A stretch of 44,640 nt of DNA from Planctomycetales bacterium (lineage in GTDB: Bacteria > Planctomycetota > Planctomycetia > Pirellulales > S012-138). The notes under the pieces are model-generated. The model ran no database searches. It had not been told where the DNA came from and saw only the letters and a program-made list of their open reading frames with translations. The stretch lies in assembly GCA_015488215.1 (NCBI GenBank), contig WFOE01000224.1, positions 1-44,640 on the forward strand, written 5' to 3'. This document shows positions 4,369 through 44,640 of this stretch, piece after piece; position 1 is the stretch's first letter; each line of letters starts with the position of its first letter. A program made the position numbers and the translations under genes.

Positions 4369-5889
4369 CTAATCTTCGGCTTCGATGCCGCCCAGCTCGC
4401 GCACCAGTTCGCTCTTGAGGGCAAAGGCCCCTTTCACCACCACGGCTTCGCCGGGACGCAGGCCCTGGCGCACTTCGACCAGTCCGTTCCGGGCCGGCCC
4501 CACTTCGACCAGCCGCCGCTCGAACCGGTCCGGGCCTACCCGCACGAACACGAAGCGGTGTCCCTGGTATTCCTGCACCGCTTCGGCCGGAAGCAGCAGC
4601 ACTTCGCGCCCTGTGCCGGAGGGGATGCCCACCTGGACGAACATCCCGGCTTTGAGCACGCGTTGAGAGTTATCGACCTGGGCCAGCAGGCGCAGCGTGC
4701 GGGTATTTTCGTCCAGCAGCTCGCCGGTAAAGAAGACGGTGGCCCGGTACTCTTCATCATCCGGCGGAGCCCGGAAGCGAATTTGCTTTCCCCGCAGCGA
4801 GCGCACCAACGGCAGGTGTTTCTGGTAAATGTCCGCCTGCACCCACAAGGTGGACAGGTCGGCCAGACGGAACATCTGGGTGTTGGGGCCCACCCGTTCG
4901 TCGATGACCACGTCCTTGCTGATGACCGTGGCGTCGAAGGGGGCTCGCACGGCGTAGTGAGCCACGGCACGTCCTTCGGCGGCCGGGTCGAGCGAGGCCA
5001 GCTCCTCGTCCGAGTAACCGAGAATGTGCAGCCTCGCCCGGCTTTCGGCCAGCGCGGCCTGCGCCCGGTCCAGTTCCTGCTTGGCTTTCAGGGCGTTTTG
5101 CAACACGGTGAACGAGGTCTGTTCCAGCAGGGCCTTGAGGATGGCCTGAGCTCGTTCCAGTTCGGTTTTGGCCGCCAGAATATCTTTACCTCGCACGACG
5201 GTGGTCAGGGTCTTGACCCGGTCGTAGTCGATTCGCGCCTTTTGCAAATTGGCGTAGGCTGTAATCAGCTCGGCCCGGTACTGCCCCATCGGCCGCCCGT
5301 GGAACCGCTTGTCCAGTTCGGCCACAGGCACTTCCTGCCGGATGGCCTGGATCAGCTCCTGGGTGTTCCGGCGGATTGTCTCGGCCCATTCGTGGTTGAC
5401 CCGGGCAATCTGCGTGGCGATGCGATTGCGGACGAAGGCCAGCTTGGCTTCGCCCACCTGGGGGCTGTCGATTACCGCAAGCACCTGGCCGGCTTTCACC
5501 TCCTGGCCGAAGCGGACTTCGACGCGAAAGACGCGCCCTTCCACCAGCGGGTGCACATGGGCCAGGCGATCTTCGTTGAGCACCAGCTTGCCGGTAACCC
5601 AAAGCTCCTCCTGCACCGTGCGGCGGCGGAGCTTTTCGGTCTGCACACCGGCGGCGGCCAGCTTCGATGGCGGCACGACCAGGTGGGTCAGGGTTTCAAA
5701 CGTCGGCTCCGGCTCGCCGGCGGCCTGGTTTTCTCCCGGCGGGGCACCGCCCCCCGGCGGCACCGCGGGCGCAAACCACCATCGCCCCAACAACACACCG
5801 GCGGCCAGCAACCCGGCCGCACACGCAGCGAAGAGTCCCCCCTGGCTCAATCGCCGCCAAAGCGGCGGGGGACCGGCTGGGCGGTCCAT
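4369..5889 (-). CDS. czcB: RND efflux periplasmic adaptor subunit (CzcB/CusB family)
   Basis: The product is 506 residues. It has an N-terminal membrane anchor (about 17-38), a Pro/Gly-rich linker, a lipoyl/biotinyl-type half (HPLVEGRVFRVEVRFGQEVKAGQVL), a long helical hairpin rich in Glu/Lys/Arg, the second lipoyl half (YAVRAPFDATVISKDVV), then beta-barrel and membrane-proximal domains (LWVQADIY..., LKAGMFVQVGIP). It links the CzcA pump to an outer-membrane channel in the periplasm. ATG 5889 is preceded by AGAGGGAAGAG; upstream codons give no family sequence. No TolC-like gene is in the window, so the third component must be encoded elsewhere. There are no obvious His/Met-rich metal-binding tails. 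Confidence 0.93.
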   Translation of the reverse strand: MDRPAGPPPLWRRLSQGGLFAACAAGLLAAGVLLGRWWFAPAVPPGGGAPPGENQAAGEPEPTFETLTHLVVPPSKLAAAGVQTEKLRRRTVQEELWVTGKLVLNEDRLAHVHPLVEGRVFRVEVRFGQEVKAGQVLAVIDSPQVGEAKLAFVRNRIATQIARVNHEWAETIRRNTQELIQAIRQEVPVAELDKRFHGRPMGQYRAELITAYANLQKARIDYDRVKTLTTVVRGKDILAAKTELERAQAILKALLEQTSFTVLQNALKAKQELDRAQAALAESRARLHILGYSDEELASLDPAAEGRAVAHYAVRAPFDATVISKDVVIDERVGPNTQMFRLADLSTLWVQADIYQKHLPLVRSLRGKQIRFRAPPDDEEYRATVFFTGELLDENTRTLRLLAQVDNSQRVLKAGMFVQVGIPSGTGREVLLLPAEAVQEYQGHRFVFVRVGPDRFERRLVEVGPARNGLVEVRQGLRPGEAVVVKGAFALKSELVRELGGIEAED

Positions 5890-41905: not shown

Positions 41906-42070
41906 CTGCGAGCATTTTACGGCTCCTGGCTTACACGGGCAAAAAGGCTACATTGAGTGGGGCTTCGGGCAGCAAGGTGCGGAACCGGCCGGAAAGGTGG
42001 CATGCTTCCGGACAAGGCTTGCCCGGGGCCGTTGCCGCCGGAAGCGGTTCTTTTCGGGAGGAACTTGCCG
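41550..42070. other. Intergenic region wecB to nicotinate PRT gene
   Basis: Most of this 521-bp stretch is repeat copy 8 (41528-41905). After the repeat TACATT (41949-41954) may be a -10 for the downstream gene, without a clear -35. Confidence 0.5.
42056..42063 (+). promoter_or_regulatory. Ribosome-binding site fixing a GTG start
   Basis: GGGAGGAA lies 7 nt before GTG 42071. The in-frame ATGs at 41957 and 42002 have nothing comparable and would add a segment without family similarity. Confidence 0.7.
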
Positions 42071-43537
42071 GTGCTTGATCCCCTGGGACGCCTGTACGCC
42101 GACCGCCTGAGCTTGCTTACGGACCTCTACCAGTTGACCATGGCCTACGGCTACTGGCGAACCGGACTGGCCCAGCGTCAGGCGGTGTTCCACTTGTTCT
42201 TTCGGCGTTTGCCTTTCGGGGGCGGCTTTGCCGTCGCCTGCGGCGTGCAGACGGCTGTGGAGTACCTGAGCCGCTGCCGCTTCCGCAGCGACGATTTGGA
42301 CTACCTGGCCACGCTGACCGGAAACGACCGGCAGCCGTTGTTTCCCGAGGAGTTCCTTCGCTACCTGGAACAGTTGCGCTGGGAGTGCGACATCTGGGCC
42401 GTGGCCGAAGGGGAACTGGTGTTTCCCCGCCAACCGCTTTTGCGGGTCCAAGGGCCGCTGCTTCAATGCCAGTTGCTGGAAACCCCGCTGTTGAACCTGA
42501 TCAACTTTCCCACGCTGGTGGCTACCAAAGCGGCTCGCTGTTACCTGGCTGCCCGCGGCGGTCCCGTGCTGGAGTTCGGCCTGCGGCGAGCCCAGGGGCC
42601 CGATGGCGGCGTGACGGCTGCCCGAGCCGCCTACGTGGGCGGCTGCGCCGGCACAAGCAACGTGCTGGCCGGCAAGCTGTACGGTATTCCGGTCCGCGGC
42701 ACCCACGCCCACAGTTGGGTCATGGCCTTCGACACCGAGCTGGAAGCGTTCCGCTCCTACGCCCAGGCTTTGCCCAACAACTCTATCTTGCTGGTGGATA
42801 CCTATCACACGCTGCAAGGCGTGCAGCATGCGATCCAGGTGGGACAAGAGCTGGAAGCGATCGGGCATCGGTTCCTGGGCGTGCGGCTGGATTCCGGCGA
42901 CCTGGCCCAATTGGCCAAAACCACGCGGCAAATGCTCGACCAGGCCGGACTGACCCAAGCGCGGATCGTCGCCAGCGGCGACCTGGACGAACACCGCATC
43001 ACCCGGCTGCTTGAGCAACAGGCCCCCATCGACGTTTGGGGAGTGGGCACGCGGCTTGCCACGGGTTATCCGGACGCGTCGCTAACTGGCGTTTACAAAC
43101 TGGGCGCGGTCCAGAACCAGGAAGGCGAGTTGCAGTACCGAATCAAAGTTTCGGACGACCCGGCCAAGGCGCTGGTCCCGGGCGTGCAACAAGTGCGGCG
43201 TTTCGAAACGGCCGAAGGCTGGCTGTGCGACGTGGTGTACGACGCCCGACTGGCCCCTCAGCCCGATCCTCGCCGGGCCATGCCGTTGCAGGGCAAGTTG
43301 CCTCCGTGGCCCGAGGGCGTGCGGGTGCGAGACTTGCTGGTGCCGGTGGTCCGCTGGGGCGAAGTGGTGCTTGCCCCCGAGTCAGTTCACCATCTGCGCC
43401 AGCGAACGCTGGACCGCTTGCAGCGACTGCCTGAACCCGTGCGGCGTTTGGAAGAACCGGAAGAGTACCCGGTGCTGCTGGAAGAAAAACTGGCCCAGCT
43501 TCGCCAACGGCTCATCCAACAGGCCGAAGCGACCTGA
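42071..43537 (+). CDS. pncB: Nicotinate phosphoribosyltransferase
   Basis: The product is 488 residues, the length of the PncB class. It forms nicotinate mononucleotide from nicotinate and PRPP in NAD salvage. Family sequence includes [15 protein letters not shown] (15-29), the substrate region [63 protein letters not shown] and the phosphate-site segment near [11 protein letters not shown]. The GTG start is set by the strong ribosome-binding site. It is preceded by the largest repeat region and is not obviously in an operon with wecB. Confidence 0.94.
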
Positions 43538-43577: not shown

Positions 43578-44354
43578 CTACTGCTGGTCGTCCTTGAGCA
43601 GTCCCAGCCGTTTGAGCCAACTGCGGGTTTTTGTGAGCGTGTTCTGGGCGGCGGCGGCTCGGGCTTCTTCGCTCATCTTTTCCAACTGGGCCAGCTTCTG
43701 GTGCAGTTCGTGCAGTTTGTCGTCGATTTCGGCCTTTTGCCGGGCCAGTTTGGCCCGTTCCAACGAAAGTTCCACTTCGGCCTGGCGCAGTTTTTCTTTC
43801 CACTGTTCTTGCAGAGCCTTGAGATTTTCCCGTTCCTGGCGGACGATTTCGTCCTTGTCCAGCAGATCGGCCACGGCGGCGGCCCCGAGGGCCATGCCTT
43901 CCCAGGTGGAGCTTTGCTCGTCGAGCAGTTTTTTCAGCTCGGCGATCTCCCGGTCCTTTTCGGCCAGCAGCCGGTCGGTGCGGGCGATGACCTGTTCGAG
44001 CTGAATGCGCTGTTCTTCTTCCTCGGGGTCGTCCTCGTCGAAGTCGGATTCCAGCGCGGCCAGCAGTTGTTGTTTCTGGCGTTCCCAGTCCAGATTGGCT
44101 TCGTCGCCCCAGGCCGAGTTGGCCTCTTCTTTTTGTTCCAGCCGGGCTTCCAGCTCTTCGGCCCGAGCGCGTTCAGCCTTCAGATCCTCCACGGCCATTT
44201 CGTACCGGCGACGCAGGTCTTCCAGTTGTTGGGCCAGATCGTCGCCACCAGTGGCCGAAGAAGCGGTTGCGGCCTGCTGAAGCTGCTGTTCCAGTTCCCG
44301 ACAACGTTGTTCCCAGCGGGCGTTTTCCTCTTGCAATTGCTGGAGCTGCTGGTG
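43578..44354 (-). CDS. Coiled-coil protein, C-terminal 258 residues; 5' part displaced
   Basis: The minus-strand frame from 44354 to 43578 encodes a highly charged coiled coil: HQQLQQLQEENARWEQRCRE, acidic DFDEDDPEEEEQRIQLEQ, a short Gly/Ala stretch (WEGMALGAAAVADLLDKDEIV), and a basic end TKTRSWLKRLGLLKDDQQ. It resembles conserved planctomycete coiled-coil hypotheticals; function unknown. Upstream of 44354 the same frame stays open to 44600 but reads as antisense-type Leu/Gly/Pro sequence, not coiled coil. The natural N-terminal continuation is on the plus strand at 44355-44552, so the gene is broken by an inversion or fold-back. No true start codon is present. Confidence 0.75.
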   Translation of the reverse strand, partial: HQQLQQLQEENARWEQRCRELEQQLQQAATASSATGGDDLAQQLEDLRRRYEMAVEDLKAERARAEELEARLEQKEEANSAWGDEANLDWERQKQQLLAALESDFDEDDPEEEEQRIQLEQVIARTDRLLAEKDREIAELKKLLDEQSSTWEGMALGAAAVADLLDKDEIVRQERENLKALQEQWKEKLRQAEVELSLERAKLARQKAEIDDKLHELHQKLAQLEKMSEEARAAAAQNTLTKTRSWLKRLGLLKDDQQ

Positions 44355-44640
44355 CTTGAACAAGAGCAACAACGCCTGGCCCAGCAGCGGTCCCGGCTCG
44401 CCCGGCGGTTGTGGAACCTCCGCCGTCGACTGCGCAAATCGGCAGGCCAGACGCAGCCGCAACACACACCCCCAGCCGACGCCGCCCTGGCGGAACAGCT
44501 CCGGCAGGCCGAAGCCGCTCTGGCCCAGGCCGAGCAGCAGCTCTTGCTCAACCACCAGCAGCTCCAGCAATTGCAAGAGGAAAACGCCCGCTGGGAACAA
44601 CGTTGTCGGGAACTGGAACAGCAGCTTCAGCAGGCCGCAA
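44267..44640. repeat. 88-bp exact inverted repeat (fold-back) at the right edge
   Basis: Positions 44267-44354 equal the reverse complement of 44553-44640 at all 88 bases, separated by a 198-bp loop. Just inside the arms TTGAACAAGAGC (44356-44367) and GCTCTTGCTCAA (44540-44551) pair at 11 of 12 positions. The right arm is cut by the window end, so its true length is unknown. Confidence 0.9.
44355..44640 (+). pseudogene. Inverted 5' segment of the coiled-coil gene
   Basis: On the plus strand this segment reads LEQEQQRLAQQRSRLARRLW, then a Gln/Pro-rich stretch, AALAEQLRQAEAALAQAEQQ, LLLN, and in the same frame into HQQLQQLQEENARWEQRCRE of the right repeat arm. It is a smooth coiled coil and the logical N-terminal side of the gene on the opposite strand. 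It is either a displaced gene fragment or a chimeric end of the sequence. Confidence 0.65.

Follow-up and report, generated by a model that had tools for sequence, protein, structure and literature searches.

In invertible, phase-variable DNA segments, a piece of coding sequence is flanked by inverted repeats. Inverted repeats with an inverted sequence between them are also described for artefacts of sequenced DNA. In chimeric reads from sonicated libraries, near-perfect inverted repeats enclose a sequence whose orientation is opposite to that of the reference, and the accessible part of that report explains them by a PDSM model, in which partial single strands pair and then undergo end repair (PMC10908179). 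For inverted chimeras formed during MDA, the accessible part of another study states that complementary stretches of 2-21 nt had primed more than 70% of them, and speaks against self-priming by hairpins as a main route there (PMC1855051). In amplified libraries, according to the accessible part of a third report, fragments that carried one sequence at both ends, in inverted orientation, accounted for most wrongly oriented reads (PMC4060946). Our literature search for fold-backs at the ends of metagenome contigs surfaced only work on Borrelia genomes, and the present case is not described in the accessible part of Chen et al. 2020 (PMC7111523).

The window, that is, the whole stretch of DNA analysed here, is an entire contig (C224, 44640 bp) of a draft genome (303 contigs, 4.29 Mb, 96.5% complete), and its position 44640 is the contig end. 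At this end the sequence-only reading had noticed an 88-bp perfect inverted repeat with a 198-bp loop. Pairing of single positions (i + j = 88907) confirmed it, with 88 consecutive perfect pairs between 44267-44354 and 44553-44640. Beyond these pairs there is one mismatch (44355/44552), followed by an inverted microhomology of 11/12 (44356-44367 with 44540-44551), which the same reading had placed at the switch point and which is seen in the pairing table; further in, the pairing collapses. A repeat finder run on the window returned arms of 101 nt, 98% complementary, with a spacing of 172 nt. Chance is excluded as the origin of the inverted repeat, since the longest exact inverted repeat in 1242 kb of sampled interior sequence of this genome (140 contigs and the window, masked stretches skipped) is 16 nt. 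Translated on the plus strand, the loop reads LEQEQQRLAQQ...LLLN and leads into HQQLQQLQEENARW. The earlier claim that the loop is the N-terminal side of the same minus-strand coiled-coil protein also held, as LEQEQQRLAQ...LLLN stands in the same way on a second contig, C202. Arm 1 is continuous with the C-terminal half of the gene. The minus-strand frame stays open to 44639 and is spurious above 44354, where a 95-residue leader runs through the fold and is no continuation of the protein.

Table 1. Coordinates of the terminal inverted repeat, the neighbouring genes and the other flush fold-backs of the assembly.
Feature	Coordinates	Strand	Description
Arm 1	44267-44354	-	88/88 complementary to 44553-44640; genuine part of the coiled-coil gene (HQQLQQLQEENARWEQRCRELEQQLQQAA)
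Arm 2	44553-44640	+	very probably a snap-back copy of arm 1; 88/88; stops at the final base of the contig
Loop	44355-44552 (198 bp)	+	N-terminal-side coding sequence, in an orientation opposite to that of the remaining contig
Switch point	44355-44367	.	mismatch 44355/44552, then 44356-44367 with 44540-44551, 11/12
Coiled-coil gene, C-terminal part	43578-44354	-	258 codons and stop; matched in 46/56 relatives besides its own genome
Nicotinate phosphoribosyltransferase (NAPRT) gene (neighbour)	41957-43537	+	Pfam NAPRTase_N, NAPRTase, NAPRTase_C
C41 fold-back	L079:1-236		112-nt perfect arms, 12-nt loop, flush; unfolded continuation at the end of C178 (L201)
C7 fold-back	L036:1-124		29 nt, flush
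C220 fold-back	L108:1-90		26 nt, flush
C3 fold-back	L032:1-44		14 nt, flush

C202 (5195 bp) was found by searching the genome with the tail of the window. Its first 274 bases (C202:1-274) are the reverse complement of window 44354-44627, with 265/274 identical and nine differences. The overlap in the arm (C202:1-75 with window 44280-44354) is identical at 74/75 bases and that in the loop (C202:76-274 with window 44354-44552) at 191/199. On its minus strand C202 carries a start codon, MSDSPVSRLSSQ... (MSDSPVSR...), the full loop region LEQEQQRLAQ...LLLN and then HQQLQQLQEENARWEQRCRELEQQL at the contig end. The loop stands there in normal order, opposite to its orientation relative to the gene body on C224. 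The same HQQLQ stretch is found on C224, which also has the rest of the C-terminal part, down to the stop at 43578. The two contigs are best read as two halves of one gene that overlap in the arm by 75 bases, 74 of them identical. The differences between them (8/199 in the loop, 1/75 in the arm, two of the nine changing an amino acid) look like strain variation, and by their sequences the end of C224 and C202 appear to be different haplotypes of the same gene. The same assembly thus contains the unfolded version of the fold, on the other haplotype. The difference in haplotype is probably why the two contigs stayed unjoined, and it allows, with a low probability, for a genuine rearrangement in one strain as the origin of the fold.

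A congener, the Planctomycetota MAG Dive100_bin3.45, has the complete gene, which spans 400 codons on contig L050 (L050:2960-4162). In alignments with the L050 protein, the C202 piece matches its start at 48% over 64 aa and the C224 piece its end at 70% over 245 aa, so that the two fall in order along it. Upstream of the gene, L050 encodes a 2-hydroxyacid dehydrogenase that is 71% identical to the dehydrogenase on C202. The far-side neighbours differ, with NAPRT on C224 and a different frame on L050. A further stretch of the same genus, L011 (G001:C177, 15818 bp), is probably the contig of L050 and was not counted as independent. Of the two congeners searched, G002 gave no match to the gene. 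Among relatives of the same order, own genome excluded, it was matched in 46/56.

As its alternative, the sequence-only reading had proposed a genuine inversion that would create a phase-variable gene. Here the coiled-coil gene would be turned on and off by an inversion that uses short inverted repeats. Such an inversion would place the N-terminal flank of C202, reverse-complemented, next to the loop, whereas a snap-back would place a copy of arm 1 there. Over the 89 bases 44552-44640 the copy of the arm accounts for 88/89 and the inverted flank for 19/89, and the loop is therefore not bordered by the same flanks in either orientation, as an invertible segment would be. Nor does C202 show repeats in both orientations: its loop is bordered by 75 arm bases at one end and by sequence unlike the arm at the other, so there is no 88-bp repeat there to recombine. 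The 12-bp imperfect inverted repeat at the borders of the loop speaks for an inversion, as do the recombinases of the genome, where we found one match to resolvase (PF00239) and ten to tyrosine recombinase (PF00589). However, all 11 matches are on other contigs and neither family was found on C224 or C202, although a recombinase could act in trans. Exact inverted repeats reach a maximum of 23 nt in 28 stretches of relatives that carry the gene (2.1-12.7 kb each; two probably represent one contig). We rejected the inversion on the comparison of the two predictions and on the lack of an arm beyond the loop on C202. It is extremely improbable, and the fold almost certainly does not represent a phase-variable gene switch.

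Very probably, given its structure and context, the fold is a snap-back chimera that was present in the sequenced DNA and was carried into the contig end. It shows an exact inverted copy of the adjacent sequence (88/88), a loop that is inverted relative to the order on C202 and a short inverted microhomology (11/12) at the switch point. We propose that an antisense-strand fragment, whose 5' end corresponds to window base 44640, had its 3' end at GCTCTTGTTCAAGC (complement of 44354-44367), and that this 3' end folded back and paired with GTTGAGCAAGAGC close by (complement of 44540-44552). Extension of the 3' end by a polymerase, either of library end repair or of whole-genome amplification, would then have reached the 5' end of the fragment, yielding arm, loop and complementary arm with the natural mismatches kept. 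The end of the window would be the reverse complement of this product, linked to the contig body by the arm common to both. The 5' end of the fragment would set the length of the arm, and the flush position of the repeat at the contig end would follow from this. Because of strain variation at the locus, the assembler probably did not follow the true path into C202. A fold prediction for the corresponding strand of C202, taken as single-strand DNA, contains the 12-bp stem in its centroid; overall, this stretch is not unusually structured (z -0.48; 58/200 shuffles fold at least as well).

A graph error of the assembler alone, with no chimeric molecule in the library, would be in keeping with the position of the fold, which lies at the end of a contig in an assembly broken into 303 contigs, and with the two haplotypes at the gene. 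Against it, just outside (upstream of) the microhomology the arm and C202 have one base in common (44354). A jump in a de Bruijn graph would thus lack a long exact overlap and would need a read crossing the junction, although an assembler that tolerates mismatches could still make it. We consider such an error very unlikely; the single shared base suggests that the junction was probably present in a molecule or read and was not an invention of the assembler. That the fold is an artefact of one kind or the other, snap-back chimera or assembler error, is extremely likely.

We then compared the ends of other contigs in the same assembly. The sample comprised 142 of the 303 contigs (C1-C120, twenty others, C202 and C224) and 274 ends, of which 32 were N-masked and dropped, leaving 242; ten more ends, of long contigs among the 142, are not included. 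At 5/242 ends including the focal one (4/241 without it), an exact inverted repeat begins on the terminal base itself (a flush repeat), with arms of 112 nt in C41, 88 in C224, 29 in C7, 26 in C220 and 14 in C3. The remaining sampled ends have inverted repeats of at most 14 nt that are not flush. At 4706 interior cut points in 140 contigs, a flush 12-nt repeat was found at four and a longer one at none. The fold at C41 also has its unfolded counterpart: the end of C178 bears C41:12-135 at 124/124 and then diverges into different sequence. A search within the assembly gave no unfolded partner contigs for the folds of C7 and C220.

These data bear on one further explanation, that the fold is a real fold-back duplication, a long quasi-palindrome with a 198-bp spacer, fixed or segregating in one strain of the planctomycete, which arose by replication template switching at the 12-bp hairpin and splits a conserved coiled-coil gene. 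The loop haplotype does differ from C202 (191/199), and the end of C224 may represent another strain. Yet the terminal base of the contig is also exactly where the repeat stops, four other sampled ends show the same, and nothing similar occurs in the sampled interior. The presence of the gene in 46/56 relatives, together with the two amino acid changes among nine haplotype differences, makes both haplotypes look like maintained coding sequence. A real palindrome, by this route, is therefore highly improbable. As far as the available tests reach, they support the cause preferred in the sequence-only reading, an artefact through a template switch at a small hairpin near the assembly end; the evidence for an artefact is the unfolded N-terminal half on C202, the whole gene in the congener and the flush fold-backs at four other sampled ends. 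The pattern is real in the sequence, yet it is almost certainly no feature of the organism.

In structure and setting, the fold matches snap-back chimeras that have been published for library preparation or for whole-genome amplification. It shares with the PDSM chimeras, as far as the accessible part describes them, a natural near-perfect inverted repeat, an inverted intervening sequence and a strand that runs into its own complement, and mismatches of the natural repeat that appear in the product; those chimeras were soft-clipped reads from human DNA libraries, whereas the present fold is at the end of an assembled contig (PMC10908179). With the inverted chimeras of MDA, in the part of the study accessible, it shares inverted joining over a short distance and 3' ends that prime at short complementary stretches. 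It differs in that nothing here indicates MDA-amplified DNA, and in that self-priming or its sister-strand equivalent fits the present case, whereas the study speaks against hairpin self-priming as a main route in MDA; this argument counts against the proposed route (PMC1855051). The likeness to invertible segments is in the inverted repeats that flank a piece of coding sequence; unlike in those segments, the arm here is duplicated and not merely flanking, C202 has no long repeat around the loop, and neither C224 nor C202 carries a recombinase of the two families tested.

Flush fold-backs such as these, found at 5/242 sampled ends, invite misreading as inverted repeats, truncated genes or invertible switches. 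From the fold at C224, where the minus-strand frame is open through the fold and 95 foreign residues would be added, a gene-calling program could also derive a false protein. As a cheap filter, inverted repeats can be screened for those that reach the terminal base of a contig.

For the gene itself, a Pfam search with the C-terminal piece found no family at E 0.001, and with the N-terminal piece only a match below the cut-off, to IFT57 (20.7 bits against a cut-off of 40). Matches in NCBIfam were all far under the cut-off, SMC models first, and a PDB sequence search with the C-terminal piece gave no match at E 0.001. The C-terminal part of this coiled-coil-like protein (window 43578-44354; L050:2960-4162) is well conserved. 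Separately, nine differences in 274 bases between window 44354-44627 and C202:1-274, within the same bin and the same gene, are a sign of mixed strains.
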